Source: Bacteroidota bacterium
GTDB taxonomy: Bacteria > Bacteroidota > Ignavibacteria > Ignavibacteriales > Ignavibacteriaceae
DNA length: 64,000 nt
Assembly: GCA_021815405.1 (NCBI GenBank)
Contig: JAKAGV010000001.1
Coordinates: 434,001 to 498,000, forward strand
Direction of reading: 5' to 3'
In this document: piece after piece, positions 7,044 through 47,216 of the stretch
Numbering within the stretch: the stretch's first letter is position 1
Layout of the letters: each line of letters begins with the position of its first letter
Made by a program: the position numbers and the translations under genes
Notes under the pieces: generated by a model
Seen by the model: only the letters and a program-made list of their open reading frames with translations
Database searches by the model: none
What the model was told of the DNA's origin: nothing

Positions 7044-8462
7044 ATGTTAGAACTTCAAAGAACGATTGAGAAGCCGGTATCTCTTTCAGGAATAGGATTG
7101 CATACGGGAACTTCATGTACTATGACTTTTAAACCGGCACCGGAAAATTACGGGATAAGATTTGTTAGAGTTGACCTCGGCGGCAACCCTGAAATTCCGG
7201 CAAATGCGGATAATGTTGTAGACGTTTCCCGCGGAACAACTTTAGGTATTGGAGAAGCAAAAGTCCACACTGTAGAGCATGTTCTTGCTGCTATAGTTGG
7301 GCTTCAGATTGATAATTTAATAATTGAAATGAATGGTATAGAGCCGCCGGTTGGAGATGGTAGTTCTATGCCTTATGTTGAAAAACTTCTTGATGCTGGT
7401 TTTGTTCAGCAAGAGGCTCCGAAAGATTATTTAATAATTGATGAAACAGTTATGTACCATAACGAGGAAAAGCAGATTGATATTGTAGCTCTTCCTCTGG
7501 ACGGCTACCGCGCAACAGTTATGGTTGATTATCAGAATCCTGCACTTGGCAGCCAGCATTCCGGTTTGTTCGATCTTGAAAAAGAATTTGTAACAGAGTT
7601 TGCGCCTGCAAGAACTTTCTGCTTCCTTAGCGAAGTTGAACTGCTTGCCAATAACGGCTTGATTAAAGGCGGCGATATTGATAACGCTGTTGTAATAGTA
7701 GATATGAATTCAAACGAAGAAGAACTTGAGACACTTAGGAAAAAGATAGGTATCAAAGATAAAGTAGTTATTGGGCAAAACGGAATACTTAATAATAAAG
7801 AACTAAGATTTAGAAATGAACCTGCAAGGCATAAGCTTCTTGATCTTCTCGGCGATCTTGCCCTTATTGGCGCACCGATTAAAGCTCAAATACTTGCTGC
7901 GCGTCCGGGGCATAAAGTTAATGTAGAGTTTGCAAAACAGATTAGAAAATTATATCAGCAAAAAAAGCTGGTTAAAAAGTTCCAGTTTGTAAAGAAGGAG
8001 GGAGTTGTCTTCGATACTAATGCCATCGAAAGAATTCTTCCTCACCGTTATCCTTTCCTACTTGTTGATAAGATAATTCATCTTGAGCTTGATAAGAAAG
8101 TAATCGGAGTTAAATCGGTAACTGTTAATGAGCCGTTCTTCCAGGGTCATTTTCCCGGTCAGCCGATAATGCCAGGAGTATTAATAATTGAATCAATGGC
8201 TCAAACAGGAGGAATTCTTCTGCTGAATTCATTTCCAAATCCGGAAGAGAAGCTTGTTTTGTTTATGCAAATAAACAACGCAAAGTTTAGAAAGCCAGTT
8301 TATCCGGGTGACCAGCTCTTCCTGGAAGTTGATATGACAAATAAAAAAAGCAAGGTCGTAATGATGTCTGGTAAAGCCTACGTGAATGAAACACTAGTTG
8401 CTGAAGCTGAATTCATGGCGGCTATTGTAGATAGAGAACAAAACAACGGGGATAAGAAATAA
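7044..8462 (+). CDS. lpxC: Bifunctional LpxC-FabZ fusion
   Basis: Two enzymes are fused in one 472-residue chain. Residues about 1-310 are LpxC, the zinc deacetylase that commits UDP-3-O-acyl-GlcNAc to lipid A: the zinc ligands are seen in VEHVLAA and RHKLLDLLGD. Residues about 325-470 are FabZ, the (3R)-hydroxyacyl-ACP dehydratase: the active-site His is in LPHRYPFLLVDK and the Glu in MPGVLIIESMAQ. This fusion is standard in Bacteroidota and couples hydroxyacyl-ACP supply to lipid A output. The joint is intact with no frameshift. It lies 5 bp before lpxA. Confidence 0.96.
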   Translation: MLELQRTIEKPVSLSGIGLHTGTSCTMTFKPAPENYGIRFVRVDLGGNPEIPANADNVVDVSRGTTLGIGEAKVHTVEHVLAAIVGLQIDNLIIEMNGIEPPVGDGSSMPYVEKLLDAGFVQQEAPKDYLIIDETVMYHNEEKQIDIVALPLDGYRATVMVDYQNPALGSQHSGLFDLEKEFVTEFAPARTFCFLSEVELLANNGLIKGGDIDNAVVIVDMNSNEEELETLRKKIGIKDKVVIGQNGILNNKELRFRNEPARHKLLDLLGDLALIGAPIKAQILAARPGHKVNVEFAKQIRKLYQQKKLVKKFQFVKKEGVVFDTNAIERILPHRYPFLLVDKIIHLELDKKVIGVKSVTVNEPFFQGHFPGQPIMPGVLIIESMAQTGGILLLNSFPNPEEKLVLFMQINNAKFRKPVYPGDQLFLEVDMTNKKSKVVMMSGKAYVNETLVAEAEFMAAIVDREQNNGDKK

Positions 8463-10044: not shown

Positions 10045-10860
10045 ATGAGCACCGAAAAAGAAATTAAACGAGTAACAACTAAAACACTTGCGTTAATGAA
10101 GAAGAAGGGGGTCAAGATCTCTTCATTAACAGCATACGATTATATGACCGCAAAAATTTTGGATGAAGCGGGAATAGATGTTATACTGGTTGGAGATTCT
10201 CTAGCCAATGTTTTCCAGGGCAACGATACAACACTGCCGGTAACTATGGACGAAATGATTTATCATACCAAAGCTGTTGCGAAAGGAATTTCCCGCGCAA
10301 TGCTCGTAGTCGATTTACCGTTCATGTCGTATCAACTAAGTATTGATGAAGGCTTTAGGAATGCCGGAAGAATTATGAAGGAAACATCGGCAGGTGCTGT
10401 AAAGCTTGAAGGCGGTATTAGAGTCGCAGATACAATAAAGAAAATTACCGATGCGGGAATACCAGTAATGGGACATATCGGTTTAACTCCTCAAAGTATT
10501 TATCAGTTTGGAAGCTACCGCGAAAGAGGCAAGACTGAAGAAGAAGCCGAAGAAATTTTCCGTGATGCAAAAGCTGTGGAAGAAGCCGGAGCATTTTCAA
10601 TAGTACTTGAAAAAATTCCTGCTTCGCTTGCAAAGAAAATTACTAGCGAATTAAAGATTCCGACAATTGGGATCGGCGCGGGAGTTCATTGCGACGGGCA
10701 AATACTCGTCTCGCCGGATATGCTTGGCTTGTACGTTGATTTCCGTCCGCGCTTCGTACGCCATTATGCGGAGCTGAACAAAGAAATTTCCGAAGCGGTG
10801 AAAAAATATATCGAGGATGTTAAGGAGACGAAATTCCCGAGCAAAGAAGAAAGTTATTAA
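10045..10860 (+). CDS. panB: 3-methyl-2-oxobutanoate hydroxymethyltransferase
   Basis: PanB transfers a hydroxymethyl group from 5,10-methylene-tetrahydrofolate to ketoisovalerate, the first step of pantothenate synthesis. Family motifs are [16 protein letters not shown], the metal-binding [27 protein letters not shown] and [14 protein letters not shown] with the late Asp-Met-Leu-Gly. The length of 271 residues is typical. It follows the LipM-like gene by 30 bp and is the last gene of the run. No panC or panD is nearby. Confidence 0.96.
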
Positions 10861-13968: not shown

Positions 13969-16900
13969 GTGGCGGAAGAGAAAGAAAAGAAAGTTAGGAA
14001 GCGGACGCTTCTTCAGAAAACTGTAAATGTTTTCCTTTACGCGGGGATAATTGTGCTTATTATTGTCCTTATCTTTCTTGGATTCAGTCAGACTTCAACC
14101 TTCCGTGAATACTTGCGTACCACGGTATGTAATATTGTAAACAAGGAATTGAACGGTCATTTGAGCATTGGAAGAATTGACGGAACAATTTTCAGTTCGC
14201 TTGTTCTAAGGAACACTATAGTAAATATGGGTCCCGATACCTTGTTAAATGCCGGTATAGTTGAGGTGAAGGTGAGCCCTTTCCAAATATTCCTTAAAAG
14301 AATTTATATAAGAAAGGTCGCAATATCAGATACCAAAGTTTCTTTAATTGCCGATAGCAGCGGTACTCTAAATATATCAAGGCTTTTTCCACCGACTCCC
14401 AAAAATACAACTCATTCAAAGTTTCCATTTAAGATTGTTGCACCAGATATTGGATTGACAAATGTTGAATTTTCATTGAGAGATTATAATATTCCCAAAG
14501 ATAATTCCTCATATGAAAATATAAACATGCATGATTTTAAGATAAAGAATCTTAATCTCTCTGCAAGTGCAGTTGCAGATATCGGTGAGAATTCTTATGC
14601 GCTTGATATAAATAATTTTTCCTTCAACCCAAATTTAGAAGATTTCAAGCTAGAGAAACTTAGCGGCAAGTTTTACATAGACACAAATGAAGTAAAAATT
14701 AATAACTTAAGAATTCTTACCGGCGGTTCAGATATTGCTTTAACTGCAAAGATTTCAGACTTTAATCTTTTCGATAGTACTGCTTTTACAAATCTTAATA
14801 AGGCAAAAATCAGTACTGATTTAAGTGCTAAAAAATTTAACTTCGATGATCTTTCATCTTTTGTTCCGGCTGCATCTATGTTAGAAGGAACTGCTTCATT
14901 TAACCTTGTAGCTAATGGCACGTTGAAGGATCTTACTTACAATAGACTTGAGTTAAATTATTTAGACACTCATCTTGAATCTAAAGGAAAAATAACCGAT
15001 ATAATGAATGCCGGTAAAATGCATATTACTGCAAATTTTTATGATAGCCGTATTAAGGAGTCGGATGCTGCCAAACTTTTCCCTTCAATTAAAATTCCGG
15101 TAATTAAAAACTTAGATGTAGTTAATTTTGATACGCTTGTCTATGAAGGAAATCCGTTAAATTTTAAGATGAAAGCATTCCTTAGGTCAGGAGGAGGAAG
15201 CGCTAATATTAATGGCTCACTCGACTTTCGTCAGCGCGATATGATTTATGATTTGAATTTGACAACTCTAAATCTTAATCTTTCACCGCTAACTGGATTA
15301 TCGGCTATCTTTAATTCAAGAATATCGATAAAAGGCAGCGGCACTAGCACCGAAAGGATGAAAGCTTCAATTAAATTTAATGGTGACGGTTCCTATTTTG
15401 AAGGTAACCCTCTGGATTCATTGAAATTTATAGCAAATGCCGACAGTCAGAAAATTAATTTTCACTTCTTGTTGAAATCAAATTTTGCAAACGCTGACGT
15501 AATAAGTAATTTTAATTTTTCAAATAAGGACAAACCTTCTTATAAAATCAGAGGCTCATTCGGTCGTCTCAACCTTGCTGAGTTTACTCATGATTCCACA
15601 GCAAAGAGTAATCTAAACTTTAGCTTAGATGGTAGCGGAAGTAATTTCGACCCTGATAAACTTAATCTTTACTTAACGCTTGAGCTTGGCAAATCTGAGA
15701 TCCACGGAGTAAATATCGACAGCGCACGGGCGATTGCAGACATAAGAAGCGATGACAACGGCGAGCGAGTCATCAATCTGATTTCCGATCTTGCAGATAT
15801 TACTATCACGGGAAATTTCTCAACTACTCATACAATTAATCTTCTATCTAAAGAAGCCGGATATATTTCCGGTGCAGTAAAAGATAAGATAAATCAAATT
15901 CTCTATCCGGACTCTCTGTTTAACAGGCAGGTAACAAATGGGCTTGCAGTTATTAATAAAACCAAAACCAAAGCCAAGATTATTAAAACAATTTATCCGG
16001 CTACTAATTTGAAATATTATATTGAATTCAAAAATTTTGATTTGCTTTCGCTGTTGCTTGGAAGCGGAAAGATTAGCTTGAACGGTGATATGAACGGAGT
16101 AATAAAAGACACCAGCGGTAATGTTTTTATTTCTTCCAATACTAATATGGATTATTTTAGATATCTCGGAAAGAATAATATCTTTTTACTTTCTAACTTG
16201 AATCTGAATCTTAATGTTTCCAATAATATCGATTCTGTTTATTTGAAAGATATTACTGCAAACCTTACTGCTTCTTCGGATAGAATTTATGCCGGAAAAG
16301 ATTTTAAAAACTTGAGTTTAAATCTGAATTTGAAGAAAGATGTTGCAAATATTGACTTTTATGGAAGGATGGAAGACAATCTTACAAGTAATCTTTCAGG
16401 CAGATTTGATCTTACCGACAATTCAGTGCAGCTTGACTTGGATACGATGAAGATATTATACAATAACTTTTTGCTTTCCAACAAGGGAAATGTTAGTATA
16501 AATTATTCAAAAGATAATATTATTATAAATAATTTTGATTTGGCGAGAAACGGTGGGGAAATAAATTTAAGAGGAACTCTCTCCCGTTATGGAAGCCAAG
16601 ATTTGAAGATCAGTATGTCCGGCATAAGAGCTTATGATCTTTCAACAAATCTTTTCAATATGGGAAATGAAACCGCACTCGATGGCAACATCCATTTGAA
16701 TGCTGAGATTACAGGAGACTTTGCTGATCCGCTTGCTAAAGTAAATTTCGGTGTGGATAGCATTAAGTTTAAAAATAAAAATGTGGGGTTGATATTAGGT
16801 AACATAAACTATGCTGATAAAAATTTAAACGTTGATGTTCGCTTCCTGGATTCTTTGATAAATAGAAACAATCCAAAGCTGTTGGTAAGCGGAGAAATTC

Positions 16901-18495
16901 CGATTGATATTGCTTTTACAGGAGTTCAAGAAAGGTTTATAAAGGATAAGCAGATTAATTTATCTTTAACAGCAAATGATTTTGACTTAAGCCCGGTCGG
17001 GAATGCTTTTCCAAAGATAGAAAATTTAACAGGAGACGTGGCAGCAAGTTTACATCTCAGTGGAACTCCGGAAGACTTGATACCTTCTGGATTACTATCA
17101 ATAAAGAACTCATCTTTTATTTTAATGCCAAATAATATTGAGTATTCAGCCGGCATTAAACTGTCAATAAATAATAATACAGTTACAATAGATAGCTTAA
17201 TGCTTGCAAACATTCATGGGACGAAAAATGGAGGAGCTATTACCGGGACAGGCAGTGTAGGCTTGAAAAATTTTTCTATTACGTCGGTGCTTGTTAATTT
17301 GACGGGGAGCTTGAAAGTTTTGAGTGAGGAATCAAAAGCAGTCAGCCCTAGTGTTTACGGTGATCTGGTAATTCAAACGGACGGAAATATTGAATATACT
17401 ATGAGTAATGAGACTTCCTATTTAAAAGCCCCGATAATTGTTAAGGAAGCTAATCTTACCTTTCCACCAACACAGTCAGCATACCAAAGCTCATCGAACA
17501 ATTTTATTTATAGATTTGTTTCCAATGGTCCATCTAAAATTTCTACCGAGGAAGATTTCGAAAGATTGATTCGTCAATCATCAGAAGAAAATTCTAATCG
17601 CAGCGTAAGTGTACCGGCGTTAAATTCTTTATTCAATTATAGAATAAGTGTTCAAGTCCAGAATGAAGCAAAGCTGAAATTTGTTTTGTCCAGGGAACTG
17701 AACCAGAACCTTACTGCTAACTTAAGTGGAAATATTAAATATGAAAATATCGACGGCAAGACGAATGTTCAAGGTGAACTGACTTTGCTTGATGGCTCCA
17801 CTTTGGAATTCCTTAAAACTTTTGAAGCGGCAGGAACAATAAGGTTTGAAAACGATTTGAGTAATCCTTTCTTAAATATTACTGCTACTTATAGAAATTA
17901 TTATACACCGCCTGATGCAGCCGGACAGGAAGAACCTGTTGAAGTAAAAATAAAACTTAGCGGTTTATTGAAAGATCTTTCTACAAGTTTTTTGCAGGAT
18001 AAGAACAACATAAGTGTTTACGTAGGTTCAGACAATATAAATAATAATAAATCCGATCCGACAAAAACAATAAACGATGCGGTCATGTTTATATTAACCG
18101 GAAAATTTTCTACAGATATGACGCAGCAGCAGCAGTCGCAAGCAATAAATCAATCGGGTTCATTTGCTTCAAACACCGCTACATCCCTCGCTGGTTCTTT
18201 GCTTGGTATGGTAGCGCAAAAAATATCCGGTGGTTATGTTAGCAATGTTGAATTAAGAAATGTTGGCTCTACAACTAAATTTAATCTTATCGGCAAAGTA
18301 AATAAATTTCGTTATACTATCGGCGGCTCTACCGAAGTCTTTCAGGATTTAAGTCAGGTTAATATGCAGATTGAATATCCTCTGCTGCAAAATCTTCTAT
18401 TAAGATATGAAAGAAAAGAAGCGATCAACCAGACTAGTACAATTACGAATGAAATGATAAACGAGATCGGCTTAAAATATAGATTTGAATTCTAA
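13969..18495 (+). CDS. TamB-like translocation/assembly module protein
   Basis: This is a very long (1508-residue) AsmA/TamB-type protein: one N-terminal membrane anchor (about residues 25-45), then over 1200 residues of repetitive beta-strand sequence predicted to form a hydrophobic groove across the periplasm, ending in the conserved DUF490/TamB C-terminal domain and the final YRFEF. Such proteins move phospholipid to, or help assemble proteins in, the outer membrane. The start is GTG at 13969; an upstream ATG is out of frame and closed at once. The stop shares a base with the RNase R start. No separate TamA is present, but a protein with an Omp85-like barrel lies two genes on. Confidence 0.88.
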   Translation: MAEEKEKKVRKRTLLQKTVNVFLYAGIIVLIIVLIFLGFSQTSTFREYLRTTVCNIVNKELNGHLSIGRIDGTIFSSLVLRNTIVNMGPDTLLNAGIVEVKVSPFQIFLKRIYIRKVAISDTKVSLIADSSGTLNISRLFPPTPKNTTHSKFPFKIVAPDIGLTNVEFSLRDYNIPKDNSSYENINMHDFKIKNLNLSASAVADIGENSYALDINNFSFNPNLEDFKLEKLSGKFYIDTNEVKINNLRILTGGSDIALTAKISDFNLFDSTAFTNLNKAKISTDLSAKKFNFDDLSSFVPAASMLEGTASFNLVANGTLKDLTYNRLELNYLDTHLESKGKITDIMNAGKMHITANFYDSRIKESDAAKLFPSIKIPVIKNLDVVNFDTLVYEGNPLNFKMKAFLRSGGGSANINGSLDFRQRDMIYDLNLTTLNLNLSPLTGLSAIFNSRISIKGSGTSTERMKASIKFNGDGSYFEGNPLDSLKFIANADSQKINFHFLLKSNFANADVISNFNFSNKDKPSYKIRGSFGRLNLAEFTHDSTAKSNLNFSLDGSGSNFDPDKLNLYLTLELGKSEIHGVNIDSARAIADIRSDDNGERVINLISDLADITITGNFSTTHTINLLSKEAGYISGAVKDKINQILYPDSLFNRQVTNGLAVINKTKTKAKIIKTIYPATNLKYYIEFKNFDLLSLLLGSGKISLNGDMNGVIKDTSGNVFISSNTNMDYFRYLGKNNIFLLSNLNLNLNVSNNIDSVYLKDITANLTASSDRIYAGKDFKNLSLNLNLKKDVANIDFYGRMEDNLTSNLSGRFDLTDNSVQLDLDTMKILYNNFLLSNKGNVSINYSKDNIIINNFDLARNGGEINLRGTLSRYGSQDLKISMSGIRAYDLSTNLFNMGNETALDGNIHLNAEITGDFADPLAKVNFGVDSIKFKNKNVGLILGNINYADKNLNVDVRFLDSLINRNNPKLLVSGEIPIDIAFTGVQERFIKDKQINLSLTANDFDLSPVGNAFPKIENLTGDVAASLHLSGTPEDLIPSGLLSIKNSSFILMPNNIEYSAGIKLSINNNTVTIDSLMLANIHGTKNGGAITGTGSVGLKNFSITSVLVNLTGSLKVLSEESKAVSPSVYGDLVIQTDGNIEYTMSNETSYLKAPIIVKEANLTFPPTQSAYQSSSNNFIYRFVSNGPSKISTEEDFERLIRQSSEENSNRSVSVPALNSLFNYRISVQVQNEAKLKFVLSRELNQNLTANLSGNIKYENIDGKTNVQGELTLLDGSTLEFLKTFEAAGTIRFENDLSNPFLNITATYRNYYTPPDAAGQEEPVEVKIKLSGLLKDLSTSFLQDKNNISVYVGSDNINNNKSDPTKTINDAVMFILTGKFSTDMTQQQQSQAINQSGSFASNTATSLAGSLLGMVAQKISGGYVSNVELRNVGSTTKFNLIGKVNKFRYTIGGSTEVFQDLSQVNMQIEYPLLQNLLLRYERKEAINQTSTITNEMINEIGLKYRFEF

Positions 18496-38062: not shown

Positions 38063-38505
38063 GATTTGTGATTTAGAAATCATATTTTTTAAATTAGAAA
38101 TCGCGTTTTTCAAATTAGGAAATGCAATTTCCAAATTCTGAATAGGGTTTTCAATTTCTTAATTGCGATTTTCAAATTGCAAATCGCATTTTTTAAATAG
38201 CAAATCACAAATTTCAAATAGAAAAACGTAATTTTTAATTAATAACTGAAGTTACGCAAAATGAATAAAATGATCCATTTGTCATTCCGAACTTGTTTCG
38301 GAATCTTTATTTTTAAGCTGTTTTTAGATGCTGAAACAAGTTCAGCATGACAATTGCGTAACTTCAGTTAATAAATCAAGAATTTCAAATTTCATATTGT
38401 AGTTTTCATATAAGAAATTATGAAATTCAATTTATAGATCGTCTTTTTTAAATAAGAAATTGCATTTTTTTAAGGACAAAAAGTAAATTTTAATTTTCAA
38501 ATCGC
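38063..38505. repeat. 21-bp tandem repeat array, split by the inverted-repeat element
   Basis: About 15 degenerate units of 20-21 bp. The consensus is near ATTTTTCAAATTAGAAATCGC, that is three 7-nt words. Units are clear at 38063, 38084, 38105, 38126, 38147, 38167, 38188 and 38209, then resume after the 128-bp element at 38401, 38422, 38443, 38464 and 38485. All frames are interrupted, so it is non-coding. This is the main content of the 555-bp gap between the aminotransferase and def. Confidence 0.85.
38243..38370. mobile_element. 128-bp inverted-repeat element (MITE-like), copy 1
   Basis: Perfect 17-bp terminal inverted repeats: taactgaagttacgcaa at 38243-38259 and its complement at 38354-38370. 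Inside lie two related hairpins facing each other: ttccgaa/ttcggaa at 38285-38303 and atgctgaa/ttcagcat at 38328-38348, each with a 5-nt loop. There is no coding capacity. It interrupts the 21-bp array. TA dinucleotides at each end would fit a TA target duplication. The second copy is at 45479-45606. Confidence 0.85.
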
Positions 38506-45151: not shown

Positions 45152-45481
45152 ATGAAAACATCGGAGATAAAGTTTACAATCCAGCTTGACGAAAAGAAGA
45201 TGCCGAAAAAAATTGAATGGGAAGCTACCGACGCCGGTTTCGAAGGGAAAAAACCATGCAATTCAATGATGATTTCTCTTTGGGATAAAGAAGAGAGGAT
45301 AACACTGGGTATCGATCTGTGGACAAAAGAAATGCTGATTGAGGATATGAATATCCACTATTACCAGATTTTTACAAAGATGGCGGATACTTATTTAAAA
45401 GCTACAAACAACAACGAAGCAGCCAAGATGATTCATGATTTTAGCGGTGAGTTTGCCAAGAAGCTTGAAATACTTACTTAA
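45152..45481 (+). CDS. gldC: GldC-family protein (gliding motility)
   Basis: This 109-residue soluble protein matches GldC: KTSEIKFTIQLDE start, the P-K-K-I-E-W segment, IDLWTKEMLIEDM and ADTYLKAT. In Flavobacterium GldC is an accessory factor that aids gliding and is not a structural motor part. No other gld, spr or type IX secretion genes are in the window. The TAA stop codon at 45479-45481 is also the first three bases of the 128-bp inverted-repeat element. Confidence 0.85.
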   Translation: MKTSEIKFTIQLDEKKMPKKIEWEATDAGFEGKKPCNSMMISLWDKEERITLGIDLWTKEMLIEDMNIHYYQIFTKMADTYLKATNNNEAAKMIHDFSGEFAKKLEILT

Positions 45482-45606
45482 CTGAAGTTACACTATTGTC
45501 ATGCTGAACTTGTTTCAGCATCTTAATACAGCTTAAAATTAAAGGTTCCGAAACAAGATCGGAATGACAATAGAACCTTTATATTTGTTTTACGTAATTT
45601 CAGTTA
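45479..45606. mobile_element. 128-bp inverted-repeat element (MITE-like), copy 2
   Basis: Same length as copy 1 but in the opposite orientation, about 85-87% identical by eye (roughly 17 differences). The terminal repeats are taactgaagttac at the left and its near-complement ending cagtta at the right, with one mismatch in the outer 13 bp. The inner hairpins with atgctgaa and ttccgaa arms are kept. It fills the whole space between gldC and the convergent LytTR gene; both stop codons lie inside its ends. Confidence 0.85.
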
Positions 45607-46542
45607 CTTAAATCTTTCTTTCAGCCGCGATGCATATCTGCGGCTCATCTGGAAAGGCTCCCCTAAGTTCTGAATATAAACATGATATGATGCGTTGAAC
45701 CATTTCTCCACTTTCTCAACGTATTCAAGATTAACAATTGTCGATCTATGAATCCGGACAAAGTATTTTGGTGTGAGACGCTCTTCCCATTCTACCATAG
45801 GCTTTAGGATTAAATATTTTTTACCGCCTACAAGATAAATGTATGAGTAATCTTTCTCGGCAGTTATACATTGTATGGAACTGATCTTAATAAATTTTGA
45901 AATGCCGTCGGCGGTAATAAAAAGTCTGTCATCGTATTCAAGTATTTTTTTGGAATCACCGTGATTATTTTCAATTTCATCTTCTAATTGATCATCTACA
46001 TCATCATGGAAATTATTACCATCTTCTTTTAATGCATCCAATAAAATATTCCGACCTTCTTTAGGCGAGGCATTATCAATTGCAGGAACAGTGATATTAT
46101 TATCATCAAAACTCGGATTCCTATTGTCTTTCGCTGATATAGATTTGACTTGTTCATAACTGTTCGATTCCATCAGCCGCGATATTGTTTTTGCAAGGCG
46201 CTCCTTTTCTACCGGCTTCTTTAAATAATCGAGTGCGTTAATTTCAAAAGCACGGAGGGCATAATCATCATACGAGCTTACAAATACAACTTTAGCATTA
46301 TTTTTAATTTTCTCCAGAAGTTCAAAACCGCTGTTCTCCCCAAGCCTAATATCCAGAAAAACACTGTCAGGTTTTGTTTCCTTAATTATATCTAAAGCTG
46401 AAGAAATATTTGATGCCTCTCCAACAACCTTAATTTGAGGAAATTTCTTTAATAAGATTCCAAGGAGCTTTCTTGCCTGTGAATCATCATCAACAATTAC
46501 GGTATTAAGTGTTTTTTTATCACTGCTGCCTCTTGTCGGCAT
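45604..46542 (-). CDS. LytTR-family response regulator
   Basis: This 312-residue two-domain regulator has a receiver at residues about 12-125, with acidic pocket DDD (18-20), phosphoacceptor Asp64 (FLDIRL) and Lys109 (YLKKP). The C-terminal LytTR DNA-binding domain (about 208-310) has ITAEKDYSYIY and FVRIHRSTIVNLEYVEKV. Between them lies an unusually long, acidic, low-complexity linker of about 75 residues. No sensor kinase is nearby, so it is an orphan here. The stop codon lies in the end of the inverted-repeat element. Confidence 0.9.
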   Translation of the reverse strand: MPTRGSSDKKTLNTVIVDDDSQARKLLGILLKKFPQIKVVGEASNISSALDIIKETKPDSVFLDIRLGENSGFELLEKIKNNAKVVFVSSYDDYALRAFEINALDYLKKPVEKERLAKTISRLMESNSYEQVKSISAKDNRNPSFDDNNITVPAIDNASPKEGRNILLDALKEDGNNFHDDVDDQLEDEIENNHGDSKKILEYDDRLFITADGISKFIKISSIQCITAEKDYSYIYLVGGKKYLILKPMVEWEERLTPKYFVRIHRSTIVNLEYVEKVEKWFNASYHVYIQNLGEPFQMSRRYASRLKERFK

Positions 46543-46745: not shown

Positions 46746-47045
46746 TTATTTCCCCAAAATCCAATTTTCAAGCATAGGTTGGTGCTTAACTGGATCAAAT
46801 TCAATGAATTCATAAACAGCGCATTTGTTGATTTTGTATGGATCTCTTTCAAAAAATGATTTGATTTCGTCTATTGATTCCGATCTTGCTAAAACTACTC
46901 CGCCTGTACGCGGATTCCTGGGACCGGATAGCAAAAGCAGCTCATTATTATAACCTTCCTGCAAGAATTTTCGATGCTCAGAGAGTATTTGATCTATTTT
47001 TGACAATGGTACAGTGTAGGTTATATTGATTATAAAATGTTTCAT
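46746..47045 (-). CDS. YCII-related domain protein
   Basis: A small alpha/beta dimeric protein (99 residues from the ATG at 47045): FIINITYTVPLSKIDQILSEHRKFL, then LLLSGPRNPRTGG and SFFERDPYKINKCAVYEFIEF. These match the YciI/YCII fold, related to muconolactone isomerases. Its His/Asp pocket suggests a small-molecule enzyme, but activity is unknown. An upstream GTG at 47057 would add four residues; the ATG has a gaagaga ribosome site. Confidence 0.82.
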   Translation of the reverse strand: MKHFIINITYTVPLSKIDQILSEHRKFLQEGYNNELLLLSGPRNPRTGGVVLARSESIDEIKSFFERDPYKINKCAVYEFIEFDPVKHQPMLENWILGK

Positions 47046-47216
47046 ATTTCTCTTCACTTTTATTTGATGAAAATTCTCTTAATTAAATTTTGTAACCATC
47101 TTAACATTTCTGCCGCAAATAAAGTAAATACTTATTTAAAATTTCTCAAATATACTTTTCTTAATAGTATTATTTTTTGATACTCTAGCGTATATTTTTT
47201 TCACGTTTGTAAAGAA

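Follow-up and report, generated by a model that had tools for sequence, protein, structure and literature searches.

A miniature inverted-repeat transposable element at the overlapping stop codons of gldC and a LytTR gene most likely left both proteins intact

Introduction

In a stretch of 64,000 nucleotides from a genome of the Ignavibacteriaceae (the whole of the DNA analysed, hereafter the window), two convergent genes, gldC and the gene of a LytTR response regulator, are separated by nothing but a short repeat, and the stop codons of both genes lie at its ends. This arrangement raises the question of whether the insertion of the repeat changed the C-termini of both proteins, whether the ends of the repeat are selected to carry stop codons, or whether the match arose by chance. 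Repeats beside gene ends are known from other bacteria. BOX, RUP and SPRITE of Streptococcus pneumoniae are described as short mobile repeats that are overrepresented between convergent genes, and in 36 cases a gene is reported to take its stop codon from a BOX repeat, for which orthologues gave no strong evidence of truncation (PMC3049150). Bacterial miniature inverted-repeat transposable elements (MITEs) with the ends of insertion sequences (IS) are well described, as exemplified by MITEAba12 (PMC6382973) and covered by a review (PMC2229807).

Results and discussion

As the original prediction had stated, the interval 45479–45606 (128 bp) occupies the entire space that separates gldC from the LytTR gene, opening with the TAA of the former and closing with the TAA of the latter. 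The further statement that the element has the same length of 128 bp as another copy in the window (copy 1) holds for the interval but not for the element proper, which comprises 124 bp (Table 1). The corresponding interval of copy 1 (38243–38370, opposite strand) is 87% identical to copy 2 over 128 bp. Comparison of the flanks of many copies revealed that the outer TA at either end of the 128-bp interval belongs to a direct repeat of 6 bp, TACTTA. When the gene caller was applied to 106 copies of the family, copy 2 alone had the stop codons of both neighbours at its junctions. Two properties of copy 2 count against the explanation that we favour below: it shows the lowest identity to copy 1 within the set of 44 copies that measure 124 bp and match copy 1 at 80% or more, and its ends deviate from the family ends.

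Table 1 Features at the two copies of the element in the window
Feature	Positions	Strand	Basis or remark
gldC (GldC-like, PF19937)	45152–45481	+	ORF list and Pfam, E 1.7e-31
LytTR response regulator (PF00072 + PF04397; Response_reg + LytTR)	45604–46542	-	ORF list and Pfam
MITE core, copy 2	45481–45604	+	124 bp, A-type, diverged, 86% to copy 1 over core
Left target-site duplication TACTTA	45475–45480	+	final TA = bases 1–2 of gldC stop
Right target-site duplication TACTTA	45605–45610	+	initial TA = bases 1–2 of LytTR stop (minus strand)
Left terminal inverted repeat ACTGAAGTTAC	45481–45491	+	
Right terminal inverted repeat ACTGAAATTAC	45594–45604	-	one mismatch vs family end ACTGAAGTTAC
gldC stop TAA	45479–45481	+	duplication TA + element A
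LytTR stop TAA (TTA on +)	45604–45606	-	duplication TA + element A
Copy 1, same MITE, 124 bp	38245–38368	-	5-bp duplication (TAATA on +) at 38240–38244 and 38369–38373

Adjoining copy 1, the window also contains an imperfect 21-bp tandem repeat (38073–38224; 7.3 copies, 69% matches).

The 106 copies were delimited in 71 stretches of the same genome (560,099 of 4,974,758 bases, about 11%); most of these stretches had been picked for holding copies, so that the 106 represent an uneven sample. Pairs of ends with more than four mismatches in total, with lengths outside a fixed set or lying 12 bp or less from a stretch end were dropped before counting, as were pairs overlapping a better pair, and copy 2 of the window was added by hand. 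The core measured 124 bp in 88 of the 106 copies. In the whole genome, the end motif ACTNNNGTTACGCA occurred 183 times (86 + 97) compared with twice (1 + 1) for the reversed control, and the arrangement ACTGAAGTTAC-N(90-118)-GTAACTTCAGT was found in exact form at 35 places and its reversed control at none. Direct repeats of at least 4 bp flanked 87 copies, while shuffling the right flanks among copies gave a mean of 12.5 and a maximum of 20 (200 shuffles). These duplications were mostly 5 bp long (67 copies), with 11 of 6 bp, eight of 4 bp and one of 7 bp. The remaining 19 of 106 copies, some of which may be false pairs, had no duplication of at least 4 bp and as such weigh against the favoured explanation. 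By a crude rule based on the end letters, 49 of the 106 copies were of a B type, the ends differing as ACTTACG/ACTCACG.

The element is a MITE. Its core of 124 bp holds no transposase gene and reading frames are stopped early, and its interior is composed of hairpins. A search of Rfam with 36–48 kb of the window yielded no match. Other forms of the element were observed as well. On one contig of the same genome (C3, locus L093), B-type elements of 157–159 bp (7267–7423, 15893–16051 and 17270–17426) have an additional REP-like hairpin, GATCCCGGATCAAGTCCGGGATGACA, next to a hairpin arm that is already present, and a 418-bp form (10054–10471) contains further repeat pieces; six copies of the element lie in the first 20 kb of this contig (1–20000). 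A 144-bp element in a relative (G008, L083 1503–1646) is flanked by a duplication of 5 bp and combines the same ends with different internal hairpins, GTCATTCCCACGAAAGTGGGAATCC, which suggests that the interior may be exchangeable.

The commonest target was the AT-rich sequence TTA-N(0-3)-TAA, with the duplication spanning from TA to TA. Among the 87 reconstructed targets, a count that excludes the 19 copies without duplication, 68 started with TTA and 62 ended with TAA; 83 showed either one and 47 both (perfect TTA-N-TAA). The other 40 departed from the perfect form, a further point against the explanation given below. Duplications ending in TA were followed by A in 62 of 62 cases and those starting with TA were preceded by T in 68 of 69, compared with an expectation of about 0.4 each from the intergenic background. 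The element itself starts with A and finishes with T, the bases that stand outside the duplication, so that insertion regenerates such a target on either side. Three pairs of copies lie close together. Two of them are arranged in tandem with one 5-bp duplication in common (C11:264600-264852 and C3:125372-125633), as a rebuilt target predicts, but the third (C25:91171-91435, gap of 8 bp) does not fit tandem reuse of such a target. A tentative and on balance doubtful extension would be that a transposon lineage had its end base matched to its preferred target, so that the palindromic TTA-N-TAA is rebuilt at both ends as a self-renewing landing site; with back-to-back stop codons as target, overlapping convergent genes might then be split by a built-in mechanism that leaves the proteins unchanged. 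Rebuilding of a TTA-N-TAA site resembling back-to-back stops was not found described in the literature searched, outside which most subscription journals lie. Nor was a paper on the element itself recognised in searches on ISAba11 and IS701, MITEs with stop codons, convergent genes, MITEs of Ignavibacteria, IS701 MITEs and target rebuilding.

Three contigs of another genome (G004) terminate 123–125 bp into a repeat that has the ends of the element. This repeat codes for the C-terminal 38 residues of a protein, the TAA of which lies within the terminal repeat, and a search with the 38-residue peptide led to three IS. The first, from a genome of the same genus (G006, L258:549-1624), is a full-length IS of 1076 bp with the ends ACTGAAGTTACGCAAA, a duplication AAATA and one transposase ORF. 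The second (L262), from another family of the class, also measures 1076 bp and is flanked by TAATA. The third (L264), 1099 bp in length, lacks a perfect duplication, contrary to what the favoured explanation would lead one to expect. The combination of ACTGAAGTTACGCAAA ends and 5-bp duplications was seen in IS of G006 and G319, and these ends are matched by A-type copies. Copies like copy 1 have their terminal 15–17 bases in common with the IS, while the left end of copy 2 diverges after 11. The first base of the IS is likewise A and belongs to its own end. The stop codon of the transposase of the G006 IS falls inside the terminal inverted repeat of that IS (L258 1611–1624; GCG TAA CTTCAGT). 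Across the class, the peptide search returned hits in 91 of 391 genomes at E values up to 1, mostly at chance level, and five loci were followed; against plasmids (tblastn) the peptide gave no match. A scan of viral contigs with a 14-base end returned 85 stretches, 80 of which were made into loci. No parent IS with exact B-type ends was found, which likewise counts against the favoured explanation.

The IS transposase matched DDE_Tnp_1, and its best model was NCBIfam IS701_2 (NF049921, E 1.2e-54). With 186 bits it remained below the curated cut-off of 250 for this model, a result that speaks against IS701 membership and to that extent against our explanation. Residues D90, D174 and E262, which by their motif we take to be the DDE catalytic residues, were invariant in five of five aligned transposase sequences. 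Among the matches listed for plasmid relatives of the transposase, 3 of 15 rows were annotated as IS701. Two copies from Acinetobacter, which carry no annotation beyond transposase, end with AGGACTTACGCA and have TTACGCA in common with the ends found here, and the parent transposase is about 27% identical to the Acinetobacter proteins. A member of the IS701 family, ISAba11, is known (PMC7326120). For another, ISTth8, a duplication of 4 bp is tabulated (PMC6352166), whereas 5 bp were found in both IS copies with a duplication and in 67 of 87 MITE copies.

In the genome that carries the window, the IS transposase had no match, which counts against the favoured explanation. At E ≤0.001 it was matched in 5 of 13 genomes of the genus, in one of these five (G012) only weakly. 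Several candidate parents in the window's genome were discarded: four genes matching DDE_Tnp_1 had no end motif with fewer than two mismatches nearby, pairs of ends spanning 3334 bp on contig C9 and 4846 bp on C3 join the ends of separate elements, and a 2264-bp pair on C11 contained no transposase on reading of the sequence. We infer that the MITE was moved in trans by a related IS transposase, which may have been resident earlier or may have been missed by the assembly.

Genes were called with a simple codon-usage caller, which missed a 103-residue ORF near 46746–47057 of the window. None of the copies lay inside gene calls, compared with 1296 of 2156 empty sites, though genes disrupted by a copy would go unnoticed in these calls. 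With the 12 copies lacking two gene neighbours excluded, 94 copies could be classified. The convergent setting of copy 2 might be read as a sign that the element is kept between such genes as a two-way terminator or RNA-stabilising hairpin, since RNA from either strand folds strongly (z -7.9 and -5.4), one terminator-like site is present on the minus strand (shuffle mean 0.3) and 22 of the 94 copies lie between convergent genes. The excess over intergenic length was, however, not significant (p = 0.09), the plus strand has no terminator-like site, and a relative of the same genus (G007) does without the element at gldC/LytTR. What was significant was the scarcity of copies between divergent genes (11 of 94, p = 0.009 relative to intergenic length), as avoidance of promoters would give, and we regard a terminator or hairpin function as improbable.

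A second possibility, which extends the suggestion of the original prediction that the ends are "selected to carry stops in all cases", is that the element supplies stop codons to adjoining genes and so renders its own insertion harmless. Such codons are indeed frequent, with TAA at 73 of 106 left junctions, at 80 of 106 right junctions and at both in 53 copies, and in the two copies tested (copies 1 and 2) every frame entering from either side stops within 8 codons. But TAA stands at most junctions because the preferred target TTA-N-TAA is joined by the terminal A of the element, a base that is already part of the end of the IS itself. Our own gene caller placed the stop at the junction for only 5 of the 109 gene ends directed towards a copy, and four copies account for these five. 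Copies in perfect targets use the stop in 2 of 47 cases, and empty target sites outside gene interiors do so in 26 of 847 (Fisher p = 0.65; empty sites being TTA-N(0-3)-TAA with at least one stop used, and 13 sites in partial overlap with a gene excluded). As few copies use these stops, and no more than empty target sites do, there is no sign of selection for stop supply. The context pattern, too, is better explained by harmful insertions having been lost than by a role in supplying stops. The observation that the ends often carry stops thus stands, while selection as its cause appears quite improbable.

The gldC/LytTR locus was compared with 12 relatives of the same genus. One of them (G010) has only an N-terminal piece of LytTR and another (G012) no close orthologue, leaving ten LytTR loci: gldC is close by in seven, one (L050) shows no more than a fragment of gldC at a distance of 1.4 kb, and in two (L049 and L051) gldC is absent from the stretch. 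In G007, the LytTR protein of which is 81% identical, the site is empty: the junction reads CTTACTTAAATC, there is no element, and gldC and the LytTR gene overlap at TTACTTAA. Both proteins end there as they do in the window, gldC with KLEILT and LytTR with RLKERFK, each directly before the stop. When the core and one TACTTA were removed from the window sequence, it aligned to G007 without gaps, with 73 of 86 bases alike. The position of the last LytTR residue was the same in 10 of 10 orthologues of the genus with a visible end, eight of which stop with TAA and two with TAG. Read by eye, gldC ends otherwise in six other relatives with gldC close by; G007 is therefore the sole relative with the gldC end found here, and the end common to it and to the present genome (G000) probably arose before the insertion. 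That an empty site occurs together with this gldC end in a single relative is a further point against the favoured explanation.

With copy 1 as query, matches to the element were obtained in 9 of 13 genomes of the genus, mostly partial, and G007 has two of them, the better with 77% identity (E 1.4e-16). A pattern scan of a genome collection, from which the record of the window itself and those closest to it may be missing, found the pattern in three contigs under named records, all from Ignavibacteria/Ignavibacteriales MAGs, and these suggested the host group. The empty site of G007 would look no different if an ancestor had carried the element at gldC/LytTR and G007 had lost it by precise excision between the direct repeats. 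No element end (up to three mismatches, facing pair) was present between gldC and LytTR in 7 of 7 loci of the genus in which the two genes are close and convergent, which renders such a loss very improbable. That both genes were once longer and were cut short by stops of the element, as the original prediction had considered, is almost certainly wrong at this site: the third base of each stop is a base of the element, and facing genes do stop deeper inside two other copies of this genome (C23:405283-405406 and C3:58586-58707), where the insertion may have changed a C-terminus, but the comparison with a homologue lacking the element refutes changed ends here, with both proteins of G007 ending at the same residues and LytTR doing so in all ten orthologues. 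Judged by these alignments, the insertion altered neither protein at the gldC/LytTR site.

We consider it highly probable that a MITE whose ends are those of an IS701-like DDE insertion sequence hit the overlapping stop codons in a neutral chance insertion, and that the duplication together with the terminal A kept both proteins intact. The MITE would have been moved in trans by the transposase of a related full-length IS. Its landing site would have been TTACTTAA, the overlap of the convergent stops, with the TAA of gldC and the TTA of the LytTR gene on the plus strand. Duplication of TACTTA provides either gene with an overlap sequence of its own, and the terminal A of the element restores each TAA; because both genes receive TACTTA and regain TAA in this way, neither protein was changed, and the insertion presumably persisted as neutral. 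At copy 2, the match with stop codons most probably reflects chance, the element having hit a target similar to back-to-back stops, rather than a function of the element.

Conclusions

The element is ordinary in kind, and the mechanism is tidy. Like BOX, RUP and SPRITE, it is a short mobile repeat beside gene ends with a relation to stop codons. It differs from them in its IS701-like ends, a link not made in the excerpted text of the source, and in that the excess between convergent genes is not significant here; moreover, the BOX repeat encodes the stop itself, whereas in the present case the stop is split between the duplication and the first base of the element (PMC3049150). With MITEAba12 and the reviewed bacterial MITEs it has in common, as far as these are described in the excerpts of the sources, IS terminal repeats, target duplications, a length of about 100–130 bp and stops in the reading frames, but their ends and duplication lengths are others (9 bp for MITEAba12) (PMC6382973, PMC2229807). 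A further difference is that its likely parent IS was not found in its own genome.

A MITE family with no parent detected in its own genome is hereby linked to an IS701-like IS in the same genus. The gldC/LytTR locus offers a clean, checkable case of neutral insertion into overlapping gene ends by way of a duplicated overlap and a stop-restoring first base. For annotators, it illustrates that a repeat "supplying" a stop codon need not have altered the protein.
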